From Prosthecobacter sp. (lineage in GTDB: Bacteria; Verrucomicrobiota; Verrucomicrobiia; Verrucomicrobiales; Verrucomicrobiaceae): a stretch of DNA of 44,608 nt. The number at the start of each line of letters is the position of its first letter. Position 1 is the first letter of the stretch. Positions 13,930-39,399 of this stretch are shown here, piece after piece. The notes under the pieces are model-generated. The model was not told where the DNA came from and made no database searches. It saw only the letters and a program-made list of their open reading frames with translations. Position numbers and translations under genes: made by a program. Where the stretch lies: the NCBI GenBank assembly GCA_030827515.1, contig JAUREI010000010.1:1-44608 (forward strand), read 5' to 3'.

Positions 13930-14016
13930 GAGGATGAGTCGCTTGGGTTGGTAATTCAGCAATAAGCAGGACTGAGGCCAACTCCCCGTCGCGATTTGCC
14001 GCCCCTGCGTCTGAAT

Positions 14017-15066
14017 TCAGAAAAGCTCGTTCTGACCGCTGACCGGCGGCACGAGACCGAGCTTGCGCCAGGCGGCGGGCATGGCGACCCGGCCGCGCGG
14101 CGTGCGCTTGAGGTAGCCCTGCATGACCAGGTAGGGTTCGTGCACGTCCTCGAGCGTGCTGGCGTCCTCGCCGACGGCAACGGCGACGCTGCCGAGGCCG
14201 ACCGGGCCGCCCTCGAACTTGTGGATGACCGCCTCAAGGATGCGCAGGTCCATCTCATCGAGTCCGGTCTCGTCGATGTCACGCATTTCCAGGGCCTGGC
14301 GGGCGACGTCACCCGTGACCCGGCTGTCCGCACGCACCTGGGCATAGTCGCGGACCCAGCGCAGCAGGTGGTTGGCAATGCGCGGCGTGCCGCGGGCGCG
14401 GCGGGCGATCTCATGCAGACCCTCGGCATCGGCGGCGACGCCGAGCAGGCGGGCCGAGCGCTCGAGGATGCAGCCGAGTTCCTCGGTCGTGTAGTAATCG
14501 AGCCGGTTGGGGATGCCGAAGCGCGAGCGCATTGGCGCGGTGAGCATGCCGGCGCGCGTGGTGGCGCCGACGAGGGTGAAGGGGGGCAGGTCGAGCCGGA
14601 TCGTCCGCGCCTTGGGCCCCTGATCAATGATGATGTCGAGACGGAAGTCCTCGATGGCCGGGTAGAGGTATTCCTCGACGCTCGGGTGCAGGCGATGAAT
14701 CTCGTCGATGAAGAGGATGTCGCGCTCCTGCAGGTTGGTGAGGATTCCGGCCAGGTCGCCGGCGCGCTCAATCTGCGGGCCGCTGGTCGTGTGCAGGCGC
14801 GAGCCCACCGCACCCGCAATGAGATTGGCCAGCGTGGTCTTGCCGAGGCCGGGCGGACCGCACAGAAGCACGTGATCGAGCGATTCGCCGCGCAGCCGGG
14901 CCGCCTCCACCATGACCAGGAGTTGCTCCTTCACCTTGGCCTGGCCGTGAAACTCCGCAAAATCGCCGGGACGCAAGGCCAGGTCAAAAGGGGTGTCGGC
15001 TTCGTTGAGTTCGGGATTCACGGCTCCCCTGCCATTAGCGCGGCCCGGTGCACGTGGCAATCCCAT
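14017..15066 (-). CDS. ruvB: Holliday junction branch migration ATPase RuvB
   Basis: A ~349-residue AAA+ ATPase beginning at the ATG giving MGLPRAPG. It has the RuvB N-terminal block [14 protein letters not shown], Walker [10 protein letters not shown], Walker B with DEIHRLH, the DNA-side [21 protein letters not shown] sensor region (seen in pieces), and the winged-helix C-terminus ending in [11 protein letters not shown]. RuvB drives branch migration of Holliday junctions with RuvA, and RuvC resolves them; neither ruvA nor ruvC is adjacent here. The gene lies 87 nt upstream of the ATP-grasp gene start on the same strand and diverges from the kinase gene with only 72 nt between start codons, so both promoters must be in that short interval. 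Confidence 0.96.
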
Positions 15067-15138
15067 GATTTGGTGTCCGTCCTGGCTTTTGCGAAATCCC
15101 GCGCTCGCGGAGACGTTGTAATCCACTCGCTCCGCCTC

Positions 15139-17703
15139 ATGAACGATCGCTACCAAATCCTATCCAAGCTGGCAGCCGGAGGCAGCGGGACGGTGTTCCG
15201 CGCCTTCGACACCTCGCAAAACCGGGATGTCGCATTGAAGCGACTGCATGCCGAAGGCGTCGGCAAAGAGGACCTGCTTCGCGAGGCGCGCAGGCTGTAT
15301 GGCATCCGCCACCCCAACATCGTCACCGTGCACGACTACGGCGAGGACAACGAGGGCGCCTATCTGGTCATGGAAATGATCAAGGGCGAAACCCTGGAAA
15401 ACCACCTCCGCAAAGGCCCCCTGCCCCTGGGGGAATTTCGCGAACTTGTGCGCCAGACCCTTGCCGGCATCGGCGCCGCGCACGAGGCGGGTGTGCTGCA
15501 CCGAGACCTCAAGGCCGGCAACATCCTCGTCCTCTGGGACGTCCACAACGCCTTCAAGATCAAGATCGTCGACTTCGGCCTCGCCCAACCGCTGGCACCC
15601 GGCGGCGCCCCCAACGAATCGAACGCCGGCTCGGTGCACTCCATGGCCCCGGAACTGTTCGACGGCAGCCTGCTCGATGCCCGCACGGACCTGTACGCGC
15701 TCGGTGTCATCTATTACCAGGCCCTCACCGGTCGCATGCCCTTCGAGGGCGGGCATCCGGCCATAATCGCCGCCGCTCACCTGCACCATGATCTGACACC
15801 CCTCGCCGAACTCCGGCCCGATCTCTCCACCGGCTTCTGCGCCTGGGTCGAAAGCCTGATCAGCCACCATCCGGCCGATCGCCCGGCCGATGCCGGGTCC
15901 GCCCTGCGCCGCTTCGAGGCCCTGCCGCCCGAAACCGGTCTGATGGAAGCCGCGGAAGTCATCGAGGATGCCGTGCCACTGATCGCCCTGGCCGAACCCG
16001 CCGACGCCGTGCTCGAAGTTGCCGAGGCCCCTGCACCCTTCCTCACCCAGGCCGACACGACTCCCCTCGTTTCTCCGGCCGAGACCGCGGCCCTCGTTTC
16101 TCCGGCTGACACGTCTCCACTCGTGGCACCGAGTGACACAGCCCCGCTTTTTTCCCCGGCCGACACCGCCCCGCTGGTAGCTCCGGCCCTGATCGACGAT
16201 TCCCCCGCCCTGCGCCGTTCGCCTCCTCCCCGCCCACAGGCACCCAAGCCAAAGCGCTCGGCCCTGCAGATCATTCTGGTGGCCTTTGCGCTCATGCTGG
16301 TCGCCCAGTTCGCCTTCATCAGCTGGTACAAGCACAGCAAGCGCGAGGAACGCGCGGCCCGCTTCGCCGAATTGGCCGCCCAGGACGCTCCGACCGGCTC
16401 TGATCTCGATGTCCGGCTGCTGCTGGAGTTCCTGGATGATCCCGACTCCCAGGACACCGCCGCAACCACGCTGGCCCATCTGCAGGGGGGGGACTACATC
16501 AACTCCCTCGTCCTCGAACATCTGGACCGGGTTCGCAACTTCCCCGCCTGCGAGAAGCTGATTCAGGTCATCGGCCAGCGCCGGGCCAGCGCGGCTTTCG
16601 ACACCGTGATCGGCTTTCTGGAGGACGCCCGTGGCCCGGTGCGCCAGGCAGCCTGGATCGCGCTCGGCTCGCTCACCTCGACCGCCAATCTGCCGCGCGT
16701 GCTCGCCGCCGTGCCCAAGGCTTCGCCGCGCGATCATGAGGCCGTCGGCAAGGGCCTGATGGCCGCCGTGCAGAATGCCGAGGACCGCCGCAACGCCACG
16801 CAGGCCGTCATTGCCGCCTGGCAGTCCGCCCCCGGCGAGGCCCCCCATCGCACTCTGCTGTTCAACGTGCTCACTCGCGTCGGCGGGGCCGACACGCTCG
16901 CCATCATCACCAGCGCCATCGCCGATCCCTCCGAACAGGTTCGCCGCGCGGCCATCACCCTGCTCGCCGAGTATCCCACCCACGACCCGCTGCCGGCCAT
17001 CGCCGCCCGCTTCCCCGCCGAAGCCAACGACACCTGCCGCACCTACCTGCTGATCGCCGCGATCGAGCTCGTGAACCGGCCTGGACCGCTGTCGCAGCAG
17101 TCCCTGTTTGCGCACGCCCAGGAACTGTGGAGCCAGGCGCGCGACAGCGCGGAACAGCGCTATGTCCTGAGTCTGCTGGGCCGCATCGTCACGCCGGAAA
17201 CGGCCGACTTCTTCGAGCGCTACGCCGAAACCCTGCAGGGCGGCCAGCGCCGCGAGGCGCGCGCCCTGGCCAAGTCCTACCGCGACAAACTGGCGGACAT
17301 CATCGCCATCGCCCCCGGCAGCGATCCAACCGTGCTGCCGGCCGATCGCGCCGAGTATCGCCTGGGAGCCCAACTCACCCATCGGGACGGCGCCCTCGTC
17401 GACTGGAGCGACACAGCCGACTGGGCCGCCTGGCTGATCGAACTTCCCGCCCCCGGCAAGTATGAGATCCTCATCCATCAGGCCCAAGAAGGCGCCGCCA
17501 CCGGCACCTACGAAGCCCAGTTGGGCGAAAGCGTGCTGCCCGCCGCCGTGGTCGACACCGGCGGCGAGTTCAAGGGGTTCATCCTCGGCGAGGTGGAGAT
17601 GGCCAAAGCCGGCACCTACAAGGTCTTCCTGCGCCCGCGCCAGCTGCCGGCCAGCGGTGAACTGTTCCGCGTCCAGAAGCTGTCGATCAAACCCGCCGGC
17701 TGA
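15139..17703 (+). CDS. Transmembrane Ser/Thr protein kinase with HEAT-like and C-terminal beta-sandwich-like regions
   Basis: Start at the ATG giving [10 protein letters not shown] (15139); the frame upstream runs antisense through ruvB and is not coding. The 854-residue protein has a complete Hanks-type kinase domain (Gly loop GGSGTV at 14-19, K34, HRDLKAGN at 121-128, DFG at 145-147, APE at 170-172), a linker with five 9-residue repeats (305-349), a proline-rich stretch, one membrane helix (~375-396), a long alpha-helical region that looks HEAT-like (~420-720) and a final ~120-residue domain (735-854) resembling the beta-sandwich appended to fucosidases and sulfatases in PVC bacteria. The kinase would be cytoplasmic and the rest periplasmic. 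Ligand and targets are unknown. It precedes the haem-protein gene by 42 nt. Confidence 0.85.
16051..16185 (+). repeat. Five tandem 27-bp coding repeats (9-residue units) in the kinase linker
   Basis: The linker between kinase domain and membrane helix encodes five consecutive units of the pattern [A/S][D/E]T[T/A/S][P/A]L[V/F][S/A]P, residues 305-349. Every unit keeps the Thr at position 3, Leu at position 6 and Pro at position 9. The spacing is exact with no insertion. Ser/Thr beside Pro or acidic residues makes these candidate phosphorylation or phospho-reader docking sites, which is inference. Confidence 0.9.
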
Positions 17704-30867: not shown

Positions 30868-31752
30868 TCACAAACCCTTCGCGAGGATCTCGGCCGTCAG
30901 GTTGAGGGGCAGGCGCAGTGTCCCTCCCAGAGTGCCGCTGCGGTCCTCGTAGTGGAACACCCGGACCGGCTGCTGTCCTTCCTGACCACTGAGAACAAAG
31001 AAATCAAGCCTCAACAGGCGCTGCTCGCCCGCGGGAATTTCGACCGGCTTGAGCTCGAGCACCAGTTCGTTCGGACCGCTGCGCAGACCGCCGATGACGA
31101 AGATCTTCTCGGCATGATCGGTCATCACCGGATAGTCATGGCCGTTGATGCGCAGCTTGGTCTCGTAGCCAAAGGTCTGGAAGGTGCAGCCGGCCATGTG
31201 CTCGGGCGTTTCACAGAGTTTCGGCACGGCCGGCGGCGTGCCGGGCGGGGTGAAGTCCGGCCAGTCGAGAAAGTCGGGGCGACCACCCTCCTTGATCTGA
31301 CGGGCGATCTCCGGCTGGTCATTGAGGCGGAGGAGTTTGCTGCTGTCGAACTTCCAGCCGCCGCGCTCGCGGAAGAATTTCAGCATGAGCACGCTCTCGG
31401 GAATCTGTGCCGAATCACCGCCCATGTCGACCTTGCCAAACAGCAGCAGATGCGCCGTGTCACCTACGGCCTCCGCCTCAAGGAGACGCAGGTTATCGAG
31501 TGCCGGCGGCTGGACCGGCACCTCGAACACCGCTCCCGGGAAACTTTTCTTCTGGCTGACGATCAGGTTGCGCGTGACCACCTGACGGTAGGTGGTGATC
31601 GCCGAGGCCCAGACACGGGCATCCTTGGCGACCATGGCGCCGCGCCACCCCTCGTAGGCGCGCATCAGTTCGGCGGTCACCGCCCGATCCTGGGCGATGG
31701 AAGGAGCGACCGGCAACAGGAGCAGTGCGGCACAGAAAAGACGCGGGAACAT
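30868..31752 (-). CDS. Secreted protein of unknown function
   Basis: The best start is the ATG at 31752, which gives a signal peptide (MFPRLFCAALLLLPVAPSIAQ); the open frame upstream to 31848 adds a charged, non-signal extension. The mature ~270 residues begin with a helical EGWRGAMVAKDARVWASAIT region and strands resembling an NTF2/SnoaL-like fold (DTAHLLLFGKVDM, SVLMLKFFRERGGWKF), followed by a second beta-rich part with paired Cys (LCETPEHMAGC). No named family is recognised. It lies 77 nt upstream of the Ldh-family gene and diverges from the alpha/beta hydrolase gene. Confidence 0.65.
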   Translation of the reverse strand: MFPRLFCAALLLLPVAPSIAQDRAVTAELMRAYEGWRGAMVAKDARVWASAITTYRQVVTRNLIVSQKKSFPGAVFEVPVQPPALDNLRLLEAEAVGDTAHLLLFGKVDMGGDSAQIPESVLMLKFFRERGGWKFDSSKLLRLNDQPEIARQIKEGGRPDFLDWPDFTPPGTPPAVPKLCETPEHMAGCTFQTFGYETKLRINGHDYPVMTDHAEKIFVIGGLRSGPNELVLELKPVEIPAGEQRLLRLDFFVLSGQEGQQPVRVFHYEDRSGTLGGTLRLPLNLTAEILAKGL

Positions 31753-31856
31753 CGTGATCACCCGGCCATTAACCACCCGGCCGCCCACTCCTTCCAGGAA
31801 AAGATGTTGCCGCCGAAGGCTTTTTCGCAAAGGTCGCATCTTTGCCACATTGATTC

Positions 31857-32734: not shown

Positions 32735-34498
32735 TCACAGACGGTCGGCCGGCAGCAGCCAGACGATGAGTCGCTTGTTTGCAACCCGCCCCGGCTCCGC
32801 CAGCACCTCGGCCTCCGACGCTTCATCGAGGGATCGCGCCAGAAGGGCGGACAACTGGGCGGTGAATCCCGCCTCCTGCCGCCGCCCTTCCGGGTCGCCA
32901 AAGCTCAAGCCCGGATCGTCAAAGACCCGGCGCAGGTCATCGCCCACCACCAGCACGGGCGAATCCCGGTCCACCGGCAGACCGCTCAGGGCGACCAGGG
33001 TTGTTGCCTCGGCGGCATAACGCTTTTCGGCCCGCCCGCCAAGCAGGTCACGGGCAAGATCCCCGACCGCCTCGCGCTCCAGCACGCTGGCGTCCACCAG
33101 CGGCGTGGCCGACACCGCCAGCGATGGCAAGTCGCGCCGGACCCGTGCCGCCACGGCCAGGGCGGTCTGCTTCATCGCCTCGGGCGTCCAATGCCGCCCC
33201 TGGCGGAAGTAGGCGGATTGACGGCGGCGCTCCTCCCAGAGTCCTGACGCCGGATCCAGAACCTGTGCACCGGCCTGTTCAAGGGCTGCCAGACGCGCCG
33301 GCAGGTCAACCGCTCGCAGCGTCGCGGAAAACTTGGCCGGCACCAGCGCCTCCGGCTGCAGCCCCAGCTTGGAAGGCACCGGAACCACCATCAATGCGGT
33401 CCCCTGCCCCCGCCAGGCTTCCAGACGGGCGAGCAGGTCTGCGGAGCGACCGCGATCCGGCGGGCAGGTCAGGCGCTCAAGGTCGGCGACATCCAACAGC
33501 CAGCCCTCGCGTCCCGACACCACCACGCGATCGCCCTCGTCGAAGGTGTCGAGTTTCCATTCCGCGAGCCATCGGGCCGTTGCCGTGGCGGCCGGCAGAC
33601 CGGCAAGTGTGGGCGCGAGGAACAGCGCCACGGGAAGGAGCAGCAGTCCGAAACCCGGTTGCAACCAGGGCCGGCGCGGCAATGCCGGCAGCGCCACCGT
33701 CAACCAGGCGATCCAAAGCAAAGTGACCTCCCAGGCACCGCCCAGACGCGCGTCCAGCAGCAGGGTGTAAGCACTGGGCGCGCCATGGCCCAGCAACAAC
33801 CCCCACCTGGCCTGCAGGTCGGCGAGATCGGCCGACAACAGCAAAACCGTGGACAGGGCCCAAACGGCGGCGACCAGAACGGCGCGCAACGGTGGCGGCA
33901 CGGGACCGGCAAACAGGCTGCGCCCCCCGCGCGCCGCCTCGGCGGCCATCAGCAGGGCGTGCAGGATCATCCAGGCCAGCACCGGCGTGGACCACCCCCG
34001 CCAGGCCACGGCCGTGGCGGCCACCAGCAGCAGACCGGCCACCGCCTGACGACGCGGACTGCCGAGGCGGCGGCCCGGCAGACAGAAGCGCCGCCAGACA
34101 CCGGTAAAACTGCCGGCCCGGAAGGGCGCGCGCAGCAGGACGGGCAGGCGTCGCCGCAGCAGCAGGGCAAGCGCGCGCAGCAGATCGGTGCCGCCCGACA
34201 ACGCCAGCACGAGCTGGGCGGAAAAAGCGAGGGTTGAACCCCAGACCGACCATCCACTGCGGGCGAAGGAGGCCGCATCAAGGGCATCGCTGACCAACCC
34301 CTCCAGCGGCAGCACCAGCAGAAAAAGCTTGGCGACGCCGGCGCCGGCAAGTCCGCCGGCCGCCAGCAATTGGAGGGAACCTCGCGCGCGTCGCGCCAGC
34401 CACAGGCCGAGAAGGGCGAGCGGCAGCAGGGCAACAAGGGGGGGGACAGGGGGCACGGCAGCGACCGGTGGCCGGGCGGAGGCGGAGTGCAACCGCAA
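32735..34498 (-). CDS. Fused MBOAT-like membrane domain and AlgJ/AlgX-like SGNH domain with degenerate active sites
   Basis: A 587-residue protein. The first ~300 residues are strongly hydrophobic (about 8 helices) and follow the MBOAT O-acyltransferase pattern around residues 90-180: the DFSGYSD position reads ALSGGTD, the FWRRWH position reads VWRRFC, WHG reads WRG, but H180 in ILHALL is kept. Residues ~315-587 resemble AlgJ/AlgX: GREGWLL (329-335), VVPVPSKLGLQPE, GRHWTPEAM (434-442, H436), and VVGDDL (517-522) where GDSF is expected. Thus the SGNH Ser and the Asp of DxHW are missing. MBOAT and AlgJ proteins normally are separate partners that O-acetylate exopolysaccharides; here they are one chain. 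Starts 6 nt downstream of the AsmA-like gene. Confidence 0.65.
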   Translation of the reverse strand: MRLHSASARPPVAAVPPVPPLVALLPLALLGLWLARRARGSLQLLAAGGLAGAGVAKLFLLVLPLEGLVSDALDAASFARSGWSVWGSTLAFSAQLVLALSGGTDLLRALALLLRRRLPVLLRAPFRAGSFTGVWRRFCLPGRRLGSPRRQAVAGLLLVAATAVAWRGWSTPVLAWMILHALLMAAEAARGGRSLFAGPVPPPLRAVLVAAVWALSTVLLLSADLADLQARWGLLLGHGAPSAYTLLLDARLGGAWEVTLLWIAWLTVALPALPRRPWLQPGFGLLLLPVALFLAPTLAGLPAATATARWLAEWKLDTFDEGDRVVVSGREGWLLDVADLERLTCPPDRGRSADLLARLEAWRGQGTALMVVPVPSKLGLQPEALVPAKFSATLRAVDLPARLAALEQAGAQVLDPASGLWEERRRQSAYFRQGRHWTPEAMKQTALAVAARVRRDLPSLAVSATPLVDASVLEREAVGDLARDLLGGRAEKRYAAEATTLVALSGLPVDRDSPVLVVGDDLRRVFDDPGLSFGDPEGRRQEAGFTAQLSALLARSLDEASEAEVLAEPGRVANKRLIVWLLPADRL

Positions 34499-34504
34499 AG
34501 CGCG

Positions 34505-37183
34505 TCAGCGCTTGCTTCGCGACTCCGAACGGTTGAAGAACGAAGGCAGGGGCAGTCGCAGCAGGGGGGCTGGTTTGGATTCGGCGGCGGGTTCCTTGTT
34601 GCGGCTGCCGGTCTTGAGCAGGTTCGAAGTCCACTTTGTTTCCTTCACCGTGCCCGAGCCTCGAAACTCAAAGAGCTCGCTGAAGGGTCGCAGGACAATG
34701 CCGGGCAGGCCGCGCACACGCACCTGGGTGGTGAGGTCGACGGCATCCTCCATGAAGTTGATGCGTCCGGAGGAGGCGATCCGGAAGACGCTGGTGAGGG
34801 CCTCGAAATCCTCGGTCATGACAAATCCGTCGCCGATCTGGAAGGTGCAGTTGGCCTCGGTTGCCACATTGTAATCCTTGATCTTGCCCGGCAGCAGATT
34901 GTCGAGCAGCGGCGTCAACGGCCCAAGAATGGGCACGGCATACAGGTTGCCGTTAAGGATGATGGCTGCGCCCTCTCCCTTGAGCTCCTTCCAGTCCTCC
35001 TCCCGGCCATCGAAACGGAAGTGCCCGGTGAGATCCCCCTCGGTCTCGGAGTTGGCCGAGTAGATCTGTGCAAAGCGCTTAAAGCTGACGCCCTCCAACC
35101 GCATTTCACCGCGGTAGGGCCGGGGTGGATCCTGATCCTCGAGGCTTCCCTTCAACTCAAAAGTGCCGCCGAGCAGGCCCGCCCTGACGTCGAACTGCGT
35201 CGTCGTTCCAACACCCGCCACGGTCGCCCCAACGTCCTCAAAAGGCACGTTTTGACCAAACACCACGCGAGGAAAACGCGCGGCCTTCACCTCGACCGCG
35301 AACCCGTTGTCGTCCTCCGCAAGAATTGTGTGGCCACGCGCATTCATGGCGCCGCCATGCACCCGGCCCCTGACGTCAAAGTCGAGCCGTCCCGATTTGA
35401 TGTGGAGGTCCCCAACCGGGGAGGCAATCGCGTAGTCCTCACCCAGCACGGTGTAGTGACCCTCCCCCGTCTCGTGGGCGAACTTGACCCGGAAATCGCT
35501 TTTCTCACCGCCCCGGTAGTCAATCAGGCCCTCCAGTTCAACCACTGTGTCAGCCGGCAACCGGTACTTGGCGATGTGCGCTGCCGTTTTCTGCGCAAAG
35601 CAACCCGTCACCGCCACTGGGTCGACCCCCGATTTCAGGCCGGTCAGGCGCACCCAGTGCTCGTCGTCATCGACCTCGATGTGAGCAACCTCCGCCACCC
35701 CCTCTGGACGCTTCAGGCGAACATTGCGATAATGCTGCTTGGGATCCTGGAACTCGACTTCGGCGGTGAGCAGTTCAAGATCGACGCCGCGATACTTGAA
35801 GTTGCGCAACTCGCCGTGCCCGCGGTTGAGGCACTGCTGAAGGTCGGCCTCGGGCCCGGCACCCTCAAGTTCGAAAAAGATGTTGGACTGCGGGGTGAAC
35901 TCGAATCGACGGATGATCTCACGTGTCTTCTCCATTTGTGCGAAGGGCAGAAAGGCGTTGGGATCCATGCGCAGCAGCGCGCGGTAGCGAAACCCCTGCG
36001 TCTCATGCGCCAGCACCTGCGCGCCAAGCGTGCCGCTCTGGTGGCGCAGGACAAGGTCGCGGATATACACCCCCTCCGGAGCGACCCCGAATTTCGCCGA
36101 GAGACCGTCGAACACCGCTCCGCGCGTGCTGAAGCGACCGCAGTCGAGACTGCCGGTGACGCGCACCGGCCGCTTGTGCGACGCCAGTTCACCATCAACA
36201 AACCAGACACCGTCGAGTGCCAGGTTCGGACTCTCATAAAAAACAATCTCGCGCAGTTTGCCGCTGCTCAGGAAGGCCTGAGCGACCCCGGGCAGGTCGG
36301 CGCTGGAGGTCAGGCGGAACCTCAGCTCGGGCGAGGCCATGCGCCAGGTGGCGTTGGCGCTTACCTGCCCGGTGGCATCGCGCAGGTAGAACCTCGTCAG
36401 GTCCATCAATCCCGAGCGATACTCGGCCTCGGCAACGACCTCGCGGCAGGCATAGGTGCCGTAACTCATGCCGTCGGCCTCAAACAGCAGTCGGGCATTC
36501 ATCTCCAGCGGTCGGTCAATCTCGCCATGCACCTCCAGAGTCAGGCGCGGCGGCATGGCGAACTGAAAGCGCTGCAGCCACGCAAGACCCTTTTGCACGC
36601 GCTGCTGGTGATTGCGCAGCACCTGAATGCGATCCTGCAGCGTCGGCGTCGGCTTGTCCTCGGGTTTGTCCTTGTCCGGCGCGGGCAGCATGAGATCGCA
36701 CGACAGACTCAGGCGCACGCCGGACAGCAGACCCTCGGCATGACGCAGCTCCAATCGGCGGTCGCGCAGGAAGGCACGCGCATTCAGGTCTCTCACCTCG
36801 AGCATGGTCGGCCCACCGGGCTGCGACTCCGCGGACGACTCCACCGGGATACTGAGGCTGGCTTGAGTGAGTTCAAAACCCTGCACCTCGACACGCTTCT
36901 CAAGCAGGCGTCCGATCTCCACATCGATGCGCAGGCGGTCGACCGAGATCAGCAACTGCTTGCGGTCGGGCCTTGAATAGAGGCGAACATCGCGCGCGAT
37001 CAGGCCGCCGAAGGGATCGAGCACGAGACGGCGAAAATCCATGTGCAGGCCTCGTTCACCCAGACGGGCGATGACGAAACCGCGCCAGCGTTCCCCAAAC
37101 GCCTCGGAGCCGGCATAGACACCGGCGGCCAGCAGGGCGCTGGCAATCGTCAGGTTGAGCAGGCGCCGGAGAAACCGCTTCAT
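34505..37183 (-). CDS. AsmA-like / DUF3971-type envelope protein
   Basis: Start at the ATG giving MKRFLRRLLN (37183). The 892-residue protein has a single N-terminal membrane anchor (LTIASALLAAGVYAG) followed by an almost entirely beta-stranded periplasmic part, with the short two-strand repeats of AsmA/TamB-like lipid-transfer proteins and a C-terminal AsmA_2-like block (GNLYAVPILGPLTPLL, then FGDGFVMTEDFEAL-like strands and VDLTTQVRVRGLPG). Such proteins bridge the inner and outer membrane to move phospholipids. It ends in a short basic Ser/Arg-rich tail. The downstream MBOAT/AlgJ-like gene starts 6 nt later, suggesting co-expression. Confidence 0.8.
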   Translation of the reverse strand: MKRFLRRLLNLTIASALLAAGVYAGSEAFGERWRGFVIARLGERGLHMDFRRLVLDPFGGLIARDVRLYSRPDRKQLLISVDRLRIDVEIGRLLEKRVEVQGFELTQASLSIPVESSAESQPGGPTMLEVRDLNARAFLRDRRLELRHAEGLLSGVRLSLSCDLMLPAPDKDKPEDKPTPTLQDRIQVLRNHQQRVQKGLAWLQRFQFAMPPRLTLEVHGEIDRPLEMNARLLFEADGMSYGTYACREVVAEAEYRSGLMDLTRFYLRDATGQVSANATWRMASPELRFRLTSSADLPGVAQAFLSSGKLREIVFYESPNLALDGVWFVDGELASHKRPVRVTGSLDCGRFSTRGAVFDGLSAKFGVAPEGVYIRDLVLRHQSGTLGAQVLAHETQGFRYRALLRMDPNAFLPFAQMEKTREIIRRFEFTPQSNIFFELEGAGPEADLQQCLNRGHGELRNFKYRGVDLELLTAEVEFQDPKQHYRNVRLKRPEGVAEVAHIEVDDDEHWVRLTGLKSGVDPVAVTGCFAQKTAAHIAKYRLPADTVVELEGLIDYRGGEKSDFRVKFAHETGEGHYTVLGEDYAIASPVGDLHIKSGRLDFDVRGRVHGGAMNARGHTILAEDDNGFAVEVKAARFPRVVFGQNVPFEDVGATVAGVGTTTQFDVRAGLLGGTFELKGSLEDQDPPRPYRGEMRLEGVSFKRFAQIYSANSETEGDLTGHFRFDGREEDWKELKGEGAAIILNGNLYAVPILGPLTPLLDNLLPGKIKDYNVATEANCTFQIGDGFVMTEDFEALTSVFRIASSGRINFMEDAVDLTTQVRVRGLPGIVLRPFSELFEFRGSGTVKETKWTSNLLKTGSRNKEPAAESKPAPLLRLPLPSFFNRSESRSKR

Positions 37184-37224
37184 GAATTGATCAGCATAAC
37201 CGGCCACCCGTCAGTGACAAGGGG

Positions 37225-38724
37225 TCAAGCCGGTGAATCGGCGCGCTCTTTCGCCTCGAAGTTTTCCCGCGCCTGCTTGCGCGCCGCCGAGACGATGTGA
37301 TTGCAGGCCTCCATGCACAGCAGTGGAAGAGCGGACCCGCCGTCGCCTGCATGTCCCGCTGCATCACCGAGTTTGGCCGCGGCCGGACCGGACAGCGTCT
37401 GGCCTTCCGCCAGCGGGTAAACGATGCGGCGCAGGCACTTTGTCGCCGTGTCGCAGCAGCGACCCAGGATGGCGCAGGCCTGGTCATCGGTGATGCCGTT
37501 GGCAAAACGATACATGCCGGTCTGACGTCCCAGCAGGGCGCGCAGCGGCACCGGCTTAAGTGTGCCTCGTTCCTGTGCTAGCGCCATGCCGAGCGCGGCG
37601 GGATAGAAGAACTCCAGGGCCAGACGCACAGCGGCGAGATCTGGCAGCACCAGCCGCCAACCGCGCTTGAGGTCGGGCGCAGTCTTGATCGGCCGGAAGG
37701 CACCGGCGGCATCGTAGCGGGCGAGGGTGCGCGCGTCCTCCGGCTGGGTGTGAGTGATCAGACTCTCGCTGTCGCAGTCGTCCAAATGACGCAGCTCCCA
37801 GCCTCCGTCCACGGCGGAGATGACGACTTGGCCAATGGCGTGGCGACCCTGCTCGAGCCAGCGCGCCAGCGCCTGTTGCTGGGCCGAGACCTGCGCGACC
37901 GCCGACCCCTGCCCCGCCTCCGGGTGGCGACGGTCAAAATCGCGCACCTGGTCGAGGATGACCTCGGCCAAAAGCGGCTCGGTGCCGATCGCGCCGCTGT
38001 AGTAAAGATGCCGACCGTGCATCTCGATCGGGTTCTGGCGAAACACCTCCATCTCGCTGAGGGCCTTGCCCGGCTCCTTCTCCATGCCCAGCAGCACCGG
38101 GATGTCCTGGAAGCTGTGCAGGCCGTCGGCAATAAAGAACGGCACCACCACGACATTCGGTGCGCTCGTCAGTTGCACCCAGTCGGAAACCAGCGGCGCC
38201 TCCTCCATGTAGGCATCGAGCACCTCGGCAAAGCCGTAACCGCCCTCGCGGATCAGCCGCACCTGTTCCTGGATGGCCTTGGTCGAGTTCTCGTTGAGGC
38301 TGGTGCCGTGGCCCACAATGACCAGACTGGTCTGGTCGCGCGGCACACCCTGCGCCACCTCGTCGGCCCGCTGCAGCAGCAGGCGCGTCATGTTCGGGTG
38401 AATGCCGACCGGATCGCAGTAGCAGAAAGTGCGGCCGTCGCGGTGGGTCACCGGGCCGTCGAGGCGCAACTCGCGCGGCAGCACCTGCTGGCAGAAGTAG
38501 CCCTCGCTGATGAAGTTCGGCACGATGTAGACGACCTCGCCCTCCACCGATTCAAAAATCTCGCGCATCGTCGGCTCCTCCTTCCAGAAGCAGCAGGCGA
38601 CTTCACGAAAAACCCCAAGGCACCGGATCGTGTCGGCATGCTGATGGGTCGGCGCGCTGGAGTCGGGGTTCACGGTCGAACCGTGACCGACGATGATGAG
38701 TGAGGCGTGGGAATGAGAGTTCAA
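37225..38724 (-). CDS. CbiX-type chelatase fused to a DR2241-like 4Fe-4S domain
   Basis: No ATG fits; a TTG at 38724 gives MNSHSHASLIIVGHG and a 499-residue protein. Two CbiX-like halves are visible, each with VGHG (H14 and H139) followed by a family-like FISEGY or FIADGLHS segment, as in sirohydrochlorin cobalto/ferrochelatases. The C-terminal ~220 residues contain the cysteines C417, C423/C424, C430, C470 and C474, matching the iron-sulfur domain described for Deinococcus DR2241. The protein would insert Co or Fe into sirohydrochlorin, or act in Fe-S-dependent metal handling. It begins 22 nt after aat; ribosome binding site weak. Confidence 0.78.
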   Translation of the reverse strand: MNSHSHASLIIVGHGSTVNPDSSAPTHQHADTIRCLGVFREVACCFWKEEPTMREIFESVEGEVVYIVPNFISEGYFCQQVLPRELRLDGPVTHRDGRTFCYCDPVGIHPNMTRLLLQRADEVAQGVPRDQTSLVIVGHGTSLNENSTKAIQEQVRLIREGGYGFAEVLDAYMEEAPLVSDWVQLTSAPNVVVVPFFIADGLHSFQDIPVLLGMEKEPGKALSEMEVFRQNPIEMHGRHLYYSGAIGTEPLLAEVILDQVRDFDRRHPEAGQGSAVAQVSAQQQALARWLEQGRHAIGQVVISAVDGGWELRHLDDCDSESLITHTQPEDARTLARYDAAGAFRPIKTAPDLKRGWRLVLPDLAAVRLALEFFYPAALGMALAQERGTLKPVPLRALLGRQTGMYRFANGITDDQACAILGRCCDTATKCLRRIVYPLAEGQTLSGPAAAKLGDAAGHAGDGGSALPLLCMEACNHIVSAARKQARENFEAKERADSPA

Positions 38725-38746
38725 GCGAAGGTAATACGTGGGAAAG

Positions 38747-39349
38747 TCAGCGCAGGACGAGACGGAACGGCGAGGGCCGGTCATCAAAGGTTGCGGGCAG
38801 ACGAATGGCGCGCTCCAGCAGGTCGAGGTAGCGGGCGCAGGGAATCTCGTGGCCGCCGAACTGCGCGAGGTGCGGCGTTGTCCACTGGGTGTCGTGCAGA
38901 ATGAAGCCGCGCTCGCGCAGCCGCCACTGCAGATGCACGAGCGCCGTCTTCGAGGCCTGATGTTCGCGACTGAACATACTCTCGCCAAAGAAGGCACCGC
39001 CGATGGCGACGCCGTACACCCCGCCCATGAGCCGGCCATCGCGCCAGACTTCCGCGCTGTGGGCGAATCCGAGCTGGTGCAGCTCCTCGTAGCTGTCGAG
39101 AATGACGTCGGTGATCCAGGTTTCGGAACGGTCGGAACACCCCCGCATGACATCGCCAAAGGCGGTGTTCCAGCGGACCTCAAACGGACTGTGGCGCAGG
39201 AACTGGAGGAAGCGGCGGGGCACGTGAAAGTCCTCCACCGGCAGGATGCCGCGCTGGCGCGGCCGATACCAGGACACCGTTCCATCCTCCTCACCCATGG
39301 GGAAGGCCCCCTCGCAGTAGGCACTGAGCAGTTGGGCGGGGTCAAGCAT
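38747..39349 (-). CDS. aat: Leucyl/phenylalanyl-tRNA-protein transferase Aat
   Basis: A 200-residue protein from the ATG at 39349. Diagnostic blocks are LLSAYCEGAFPMG, WYRPRQRGILP, FGDVMRGC, and GGVYGVAIGGAFFGESMFS with ASKTALVHL after it, then DTQWTTPHLAQFGG. Aat adds Leu or Phe from charged tRNA to N-terminal Arg/Lys, creating N-end-rule degrons for ClpAP/ClpS. No clpS or clpA is adjacent. The frame that continues downstream into the chelatase gene is out of phase and not coding for Aat. Confidence 0.95.
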   Translation of the reverse strand: MLDPAQLLSAYCEGAFPMGEEDGTVSWYRPRQRGILPVEDFHVPRRFLQFLRHSPFEVRWNTAFGDVMRGCSDRSETWITDVILDSYEELHQLGFAHSAEVWRDGRLMGGVYGVAIGGAFFGESMFSREHQASKTALVHLQWRLRERGFILHDTQWTTPHLAQFGGHEIPCARYLDLLERAIRLPATFDDRPSPFRLVLR

Positions 39350-39399
39350 GGCGGGCGGCCCAAAAGGTAAAGACGCGCCCGCCCGAATGCAACCCCGGC

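Follow-up and report, generated by a model that had tools for sequence, protein, structure and literature searches.

A protein encoded on the minus strand of the window (the whole 44,608-nt stretch of Prosthecobacter DNA that was analysed) joins a truncated, MBOAT-derived membrane half to an AlgJ/AlgX-type SGNH domain, and lacks the residue for each of the three known chemical stations of MBOAT/SGNH systems (the WHG His, the acyl-Tyr and the SGNH Ser). We favour, with moderate confidence, the view that it is a repurposed pseudo-acyltransferase, anchored in the membrane and reused as a periplasmic binding or scaffold protein. The family to which it belongs is homologous to both partners of the canonical pair, has lost their motifs, conserves these losses, is under purifying selection and has lineage-specific invariant residues. 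Judged by its sequence, it is very unlikely to be a normal O-acetyltransferase. The features of the window referred to below are:

32735..34498, minus strand: half-MBOAT/pseudo-SGNH fusion ORF, 587 aa from TTG at 34498, coding to 32738, stop at 32735
34456, minus strand: GTG at residue 15, likelier start of the fusion ORF by alignment with L032, giving 573 aa
33629..34348, minus strand: MBOAT-derived membrane half, residues about 51-290, from blastp to adjacent-pair MBOATs, alignment and a fold match to DltB (Z 9.8)
34082..34099, minus strand: VWRRFC, residues 134-139, remnant of FWRRWH with the first MBOAT His replaced by Cys; the RDYLYIPLGGNR segment due next is almost gone
33995..34003, minus strand: W166-R167-G168, remnant of WHG with the catalytic His replaced by Arg
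33959..33961, minus strand: H180, the His of the second (xHG) site, kept
32738..33535, minus strand: SGNH-fold domain (AlgJ/AlgX type), residues 322-587; PF16822; AlgJ Z 14.5, AlgX 13.4
33188..33199, minus strand: G434-R435-H436-W437, remnant of DTHW
32933..32944, minus strand: G519-D520-D521-L522, remnant of GDSF with the nucleophile Ser replaced by Asp
34505..37207, minus strand: AsmA-like gene upstream of the fusion ORF, a neighbour only; the adjacency is not conserved

The GTG at 34456 matches the GTG start of the closest homologue (L032) and is therefore the likelier true start. The distance between the fusion ORF and the upstream AsmA-like gene is then more likely 48 nt than 6 nt.

A Pfam search assigned the C-terminal half of the window protein to PF16822 (ALGX; E 1.8e-18, 67.6 bits versus a cut-off of 26.5), and a profile of the family matched the AlgJ sequence with E 8.6e-13. 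No MBOAT Pfam model, PF03062 included, matched the N-terminal half up to E 1, and NCBIfam gave no match to the protein up to E 0.01. The fused protein L050 from another genus reached only E 0.5 with PF03062. The N-terminal half did match, in blastp searches against the ORFs of relatives, MBOATs that are encoded beside intact SGNH genes. An AlphaFold2 model built with 12 homologues (mean pLDDT 70.5, pTM 0.63) gave two sets of fold matches. Residues about 8-276 matched DltB (Z 9.8), PORCN (9.1) and LPCAT3 (8.6), these three over residues about 9-238, and also HHAT, with a range of 6.8-9.8, and residues 332-587 matched AlgJ (4o8v, Z 14.5), AlgX (13.4 for 7ula, and 12.9) and PatB1 (12.8), with a range of 12.4-14.5. 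Foldseek placed AlgJ at ranks 1-2 and DltB at ranks 3-5 (E 0.05-0.065 for DltB). Z values below about 13 can be unspecific for helical proteins, although the MBOAT rows exceed the next unrelated row (4.9). Since these Z values are only moderate for a helical protein, the MBOAT assignment leans on sequence too, and the model points to a partial MBOAT fold with moderate scores. The initial annotation had proposed an MBOAT-like and an AlgJ/AlgX-like part in one chain, and the PF16822 match, the blastp matches to canonical MBOATs and the two sets of fold matches support this; of the two profile comparisons it had suggested, the one with AlgJ/AlgX gave the match to PF16822 and the one with MBOAT gave none to PF03062.

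In canonical relatives from the same family and order the two genes are intact and adjacent, encoding an MBOAT of ~473 aa and an SGNH partner of ~500-620 aa. Relative to these, the MBOAT half of the window protein begins at canonical residue about 196 and the first ~195 residues are absent (blastp, alignment), so that as aligned it is roughly the C-terminal half of an MBOAT and not a whole one. A tblastn search with residues 1-195 of L080, L072 and L091 against the window and 40 loci (L032-L071) returned only one chance-level match (E 0.052), and the idea that the missing N-terminal piece is encoded close by was rejected on this ground. The canonical MBOATs have, in 24/24, the three His (of FWRRWH, of WHG and of the second HG), RDYLYIPLGGNR and, at the C-terminus, FxYxx[FY]. 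Among the fused genus members (n=21), the FWRRWH His is kept in 6, the WHG His in 10 and the second HG His in 8. In four fused members (L037, L038, L043, L090) a His aligns with each of the two main MBOAT positions, which speaks against this half being dead throughout. The RDYLYIPLGGNR segment has 0-4 of its 12 residues left in 21/21 fused genus members and none in 17/17 halves that occur as separate ORFs (split halves, see below); the catalytic His of WHG was lost along with the core in all 17 of the latter. A scan of residues 241-345 found the acyl-tyrosine motif FxYxx[FY] in 0/25 fused proteins, and 0/17 split halves end in it, versus its presence in every canonical MBOAT. This tail motif is described as holding the acyl-tyrosine that passes the acyl group to the SGNH protein (PMC12148441). 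As the fusion runs on through the MBOAT end, the motif cannot stay a free C-terminus.

Loss of the nucleophile motif in the SGNH half extends over the whole genus. GDS is present in 0/43 readable genus rows versus 25/25 canonical SGNH proteins, which also have DTHW in 25/25; the 43 rows leave out G006 (no C-half) and G027 (two fragments), and the canonical set includes L167 from G046, a genome that belongs to this genus and also carries a degenerate fused copy. G046 is the sole genus genome found with a canonical-type MBOAT and SGNH protein (L167 on contig C211; DTHW, GDSF), and its degenerate copy lies on another contig. At the Ser position the 43 genus rows have E (18), D (17), G (2), S (2), A (2), Q (1) or P (1), and the two rows with an aligned Ser read RSS and GGS. 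The Asp of DxHW is kept in 40/43 rows, the His in 40/43 and both in 37/43. An acid stands at the Ser position in 35/43 members, and D434, H436 and an acid at 521 occur together in 31/43. The Asp of DxHW is absent in the window protein and in only two of the other 42 rows. The canonical SGNH protein continues for another ~130 residues at its C-terminus, an extension that the window protein does not have either; PMC4148444 describes the C-terminal domain of AlgX as a carbohydrate-binding module.

These alignments confirmed the residues singled out by the initial annotation (R167 in WRG, H180 kept, G434 and H436 in GRHW, D521 in GDDL). Its claim that both catalytic centres look dead holds for the SGNH motif throughout the genus, but not for every MBOAT half, as the count for the WHG His shows. 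The loss of the DxHW Asp is correct for the window and does not extend to the family: the homologue search revealed a conserved, genus-wide subfamily without GDS, in which the loss of that Asp is limited to three rows. Likewise, MBOAT and SGNH parts form one polypeptide in the window, but of the MBOAT only about the C-terminal half is there, and in roughly half of the genus adjacent ORFs encode the two parts. The losses that the annotation did not list are the ~195 N-terminal MBOAT residues, most of RDYLYIPLGGNR, the FxYxxF motif and the ~130-residue SGNH C-terminal extension.

An ortholog of the fusion, either fused or as two adjacent ORFs, was found in 45/48 genomes of the window's genus, which excludes chance; the three lacking genomes are 52, 81 and 91% complete. 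The best full-length fused homologue matched the window protein with E 2.4e-131. The gene is fused in 21 of the 45 genomes (G006 provides an N-terminal contig fragment only), split in 23 and broken over two contigs in one (G027). G021 was counted as split by its place in the tree, because its contig ends before the half-MBOAT. In the split form the half-MBOAT ORF directly precedes the SGNH ORF in 17/18 loci (L054-L071), L060 being without it because its contig ends. Fifteen of these ORFs have 221-257 aa and two are longer by start choice; L054:6582-7247 is such a stand-alone half-MBOAT ORF, with counterparts in 16 more of the loci L055-L071. In blastp comparisons with the canonical MBOAT, residues about 151-302 were matched in 17/17 split halves and residues about 383-473 also in 13/17. 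Between these two stretches ~115 residues, which include both main His, have been excised (blastp, alignment). Pfam gave no match for the three split halves tested (L054, L062, L064), and Foldseek gave no significant match for the model of a 229-aa split half (pLDDT 75.3, pTM 0.72; DltB at rank 3, E 1.3), so that the relation of the split halves to MBOATs rests on blastp to the canonical proteins. A search of 384 genomes, sampled evenly across the class, found no single OR­F outside the family that matched both halves with E up to 1e-30.

Both halves of the fusion family are under purifying selection, with dN/dS values of 0.08-0.24. The degenerate SGNH-bearing genes gave 0.09-0.20 (8 pairs of near relatives) and the split half-MBOATs 0.12-0.24 (5 pairs); calculated separately (4 pairs), the MBOAT half had 0.08-0.19 and the SGNH half 0.09-0.16. 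Neighbouring genes had values of 0.03-0.07 (6 comparisons). Two canonical control pairs gave 0.062 (L081/L086) and 0.62 (SGNH genes of L072/L162; dS only 0.088, related genomes, L162 cut by the contig end); the latter value departs from all other pairs and counts against the reading that we favour. To compare invariant residues at matched divergence, 22 rows from the genus (mean identity 0.43) were set against 21 from canonical proteins (0.42). The genus has six invariant positions whose residue occurs in fewer than half of the canonical proteins (W421, K443, T465, P466, A470, G506). Nine positions show the reverse pattern, among them D520, S521, F522 and N524, and P375, W437, G479 and D480 are invariant in both sets. 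Decay alone makes no new invariant positions, and these data therefore support the view that the family was repurposed rather than merely decaying.

The fused architecture probably arose more than once. In a tree of the SGNH domain (73 rows; motif columns kept in, the chosen outgroup not forming one side of a branch, L053 and L167 long rows, L167b left out), the 43 genus members form one clade (100/100) in which fused and split forms are sister groups. Two proteins from other genera, L161 (genus g6) and L050 (g11), are fused and have a gutted MBOAT half, yet their SGNH triad is entirely intact. L161 is placed among canonical pairs (100/100 and 96/90), and the sister of L050 is L160, the canonical pair of its own genus (99/98). 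L161 (3493-5367, minus strand; DTHW, GDSF) has the appearance of an intermediate. Since both branch separately, multiple origins of the fusion are probable; the trees suggest at least two and probably three independent fusions, in which the MBOAT would have been disabled first. The alternative that the fusion arose once and that L161 and L050 later exchanged their SGNH part with canonical copies by gene conversion is possible but less probable. It would fit the tree of the MBOAT half, which is compatible with one clade of all degenerate forms (62/93), and the W/F-[SC]-x-P motif that L161, L050, the window protein and L032 have in common at the deletion. However, placing L050 (p 0.35) or L161 (p 0.26) separately is not rejected by the MBOAT-half tree either, and the SGNH tree rejects a single clade of all degenerate forms with p-AU 2.4e-79, or 0.0038 without L161, the latter test having been chosen after the tree was seen.

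No operon partner common to the whole family was found, and contexts differ between the clades. A gamma-glutamyltranspeptidase gene lies upstream in 7 fused loci and a PAP2/phosphatase gene in 6, while a beta-eliminating lyase gene lies downstream in 18/18 split loci L054-L071 (about 9 kb away in L067). The initial annotation took the adjacent AsmA-like gene as a hint at an envelope lipid role. We rejected this link: the gene is single-copy in 47/48 genus genomes (G007 had no match) but adjoins the fusion gene in the window alone; in G010 and G036 it lies on the same contig as the homologue at a distance of about 7 kb, and elsewhere on other contigs. The AsmA-like gene of the window (34505-37207, minus strand) also weakly matches GspN of type II secretion. 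A 326-aa ORF without Pfam match at 30868-31848 (minus strand) is kept, with the neighbouring hydrolase gene, next to L032. Further ORFs of the window are one of 1235 aa at 13996-17703 (plus strand), which contains HEAT repeats and a protein kinase domain and overlaps a 1297-aa ORF on the opposite strand, and one with CbiX, DR2241 and Fer4_23 domains at 37225-39363 (minus strand). Pfam matched nothing in the first ~225 residues of the latter, which may have been added by a start set too far upstream.

The history that we propose for the window protein starts from an adjacent pair of a full MBOAT and an AlgJ/AlgX-like SGNH protein. The ancestral MBOAT would have moved acetyl from cytoplasmic acyl-CoA onto its C-terminal tyrosine, and the SGNH partner would have transferred it onto a polysaccharide. 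The MBOAT was then presumably trimmed to a bundle of membrane helices and either joined with the SGNH domain in one chain or kept as its neighbour; in the window's genus the SGNH nucleophile motif would have disappeared as well. The remnant would be a membrane-anchored SGNH-fold domain, probably facing the periplasm. Most likely it performs no acyl transfer and serves as a scaffold or receptor that binds a partner protein or a glycan of the envelope in the former active-site cleft, now remodelled. The initial annotation had already suggested a repurposed scaffold or pseudoenzyme instead of a normal acetyltransferase; the conserved motif loss and the purifying selection agree with this, and the periplasmic orientation, the absence of catalysis and the binding or scaffold role are the parts that we infer. 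The AlgX/AlgJ family offers a precedent for functions beyond catalysis, since deletion of algX compromises alginate secretion and AlgX acts in complex with AlgK (as reported in PMC9734138), and the predicted AlgI-AlgJ complex is held mainly by the transmembrane part of AlgJ (as reported in PMC10641220). The fusion protein is probably independent of an intact MBOAT. PF03062 was recognised in 25/48 genus genomes (19 of the 33 most complete ones), and G014 has a gene of the family but neither PF03062 nor AT3 (PF01757), which argues against a general dependence on an MBOAT.

A purely structural domain does not need a DxH dyad and an acid at the Ser position, and their frequent retention is a point against the reading that we favour. 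The joint presence of D434, H436 and the acid in 31 members leaves room for a new active or ligand site, in which Asp or Glu would replace the Ser nucleophile beside Asp-x-His, or two acids and a His would form a metal or ligand site. Alpha/beta-hydrolase dehalogenases and epoxide hydrolases, which use an Asp nucleophile, are comparable in principle. New invariant residues and purifying selection count in favour of this too, but 12/43 members, the window protein included (G434), do not have the set, and the exchange of Asp and Glu within the family, together with A, G, P, Q or S at 521, is unusual for a nucleophile. We therefore consider such new chemistry rather unlikely. A broader formulation is also unlikely: the family would be a new kind of SGNH protein of this type, with new chemistry or a ligand or metal site, whose MBOAT was repeatedly and independently reduced to a membrane anchor, the window protein being further derived by loss of the dyad Asp.

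It is quite unlikely that the protein still works as an O-acyltransferase or esterase which uses its residual His and obtains the acyl group from another membrane acyltransferase (AT3 or another MBOAT). Donors would be available, as AT3 is present in 47/48 genus genomes and the window's own genome has an intact MBOAT (PF03062) on contig C69, and L161 and L050 show that a fused protein can have the full SGNH triad. This is opposed by the absence of GDS from every genus row, by the loss of the acyl-Tyr motif and by G014, which has the gene without either donor. The MBOAT on C69 (L091:5544-6959) is followed by a 308-aa ORF, a possible partner. Some residual activity is conceivable, because mutation of the AlgJ triad left about 20% esterase activity in vitro, while the same change abolished the activity of AlgX (both as given in PMC4148444). 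This, the Ser at the aligned position in two members, and the lack of a conserved operon partner are points against the pseudo-acyltransferase that we favour. A decaying pseudogene that happens to be open is very improbable. The gene evolves fast (identity to the G009 counterpart is 46%, compared with 69% in the AsmA-like gene and 80% in the hydrolase next to it), and D434 and H436 were sporadically lost in further members. Nevertheless, there is no internal stop among the genus matches listed, the gene persists in nearly all genomes of the genus, and dN/dS is well below 1 in both halves, nowhere near 1.

Taken as a repurposed pseudo-acyltransferase, the protein belongs to a graded natural series that leads from the canonical pair to a gutted MBOAT fused to an intact SGNH domain, to the loss of both centres and to excision of the MBOAT core. 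The series ends in a conserved protein without any known chemical part of the two-protein transmembrane acylation machine, which suggests a role of the MBOAT/SGNH architecture that can be separated from acyl transfer, and isolates carrying the family make this role testable. In this group of stalked bacteria, a machine that acetylates surface sugars was reduced, stripped of its working parts and often fused; its preservation all the same suggests that it has taken on a new task in the envelope, probably a non-enzymatic one. Annotation based on PF16822 would name the genus proteins acetyltransferases, and this is probably wrong there. Literature searches (titles and abstract starts) revealed no earlier account of a fused MBOAT-SGNH protein or of this genus family.

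AlgI with AlgJ/AlgX, which O-acetylate alginate in Pseudomonas, are the same two kinds of protein, and the SGNH half has its best matches, in sequence as in fold, to AlgJ/AlgX. The window protein has the AlgJ/AlgX signature residues P375, K377, H436 and W437, the motifs being given as PxK and TDTHW in PMC4148444. AlgI and AlgJ/AlgX are, however, separate proteins with intact triads (D190, H192 and S288 in AlgJ, according to the same source), while in the window protein the MBOAT half is truncated and the Ser and the acyl-shuttle motif are gone. PatA and PatB, which O-acetylate peptidoglycan, follow the same MBOAT/SGNH logic, and the canonical relatives end in a FLYFQF-type motif like the FxYxxF of PatA. 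PMC12148441 describes PatA and PatB as two active proteins on separate chains, which work through steps at acetyl-Tyr, His and Ser, and the window protein has no residue for any of the three. DltB of the DltB/DltX/DltD system for D-alanylation is the best match to the model of the half-MBOAT (Z 9.8), yet the window protein is without the N-terminal part of the MBOAT chain, and no FxYxxF was found where its MBOAT half ends. AT3-SGNH proteins of the OatA type resemble the window protein in that one chain combines an SGNH part with a membrane acyltransferase, but their membrane part is AT3, not MBOAT, and both parts are active. In the account of PMC12148441, MBOAT and SGNH partners are separate proteins and the fused kind is AT3-SGNH. 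The window protein is thus a member of the AlgX/AlgJ family by profile and fold that lacks the triad of Asp-x-His plus Ser, and it is derived from an MBOAT but lacks the MBOAT profile, the WHG His and the tail motif. Eukaryotic pseudo-MBOATs such as HHATL/GUP1 likewise have an MBOAT fold without the catalytic His; unlike the window protein, they are near full-length MBOATs and have no SGNH domain. The fusion family is best called a probable bacterial pseudoenzyme made from an MBOAT-SGNH pair.
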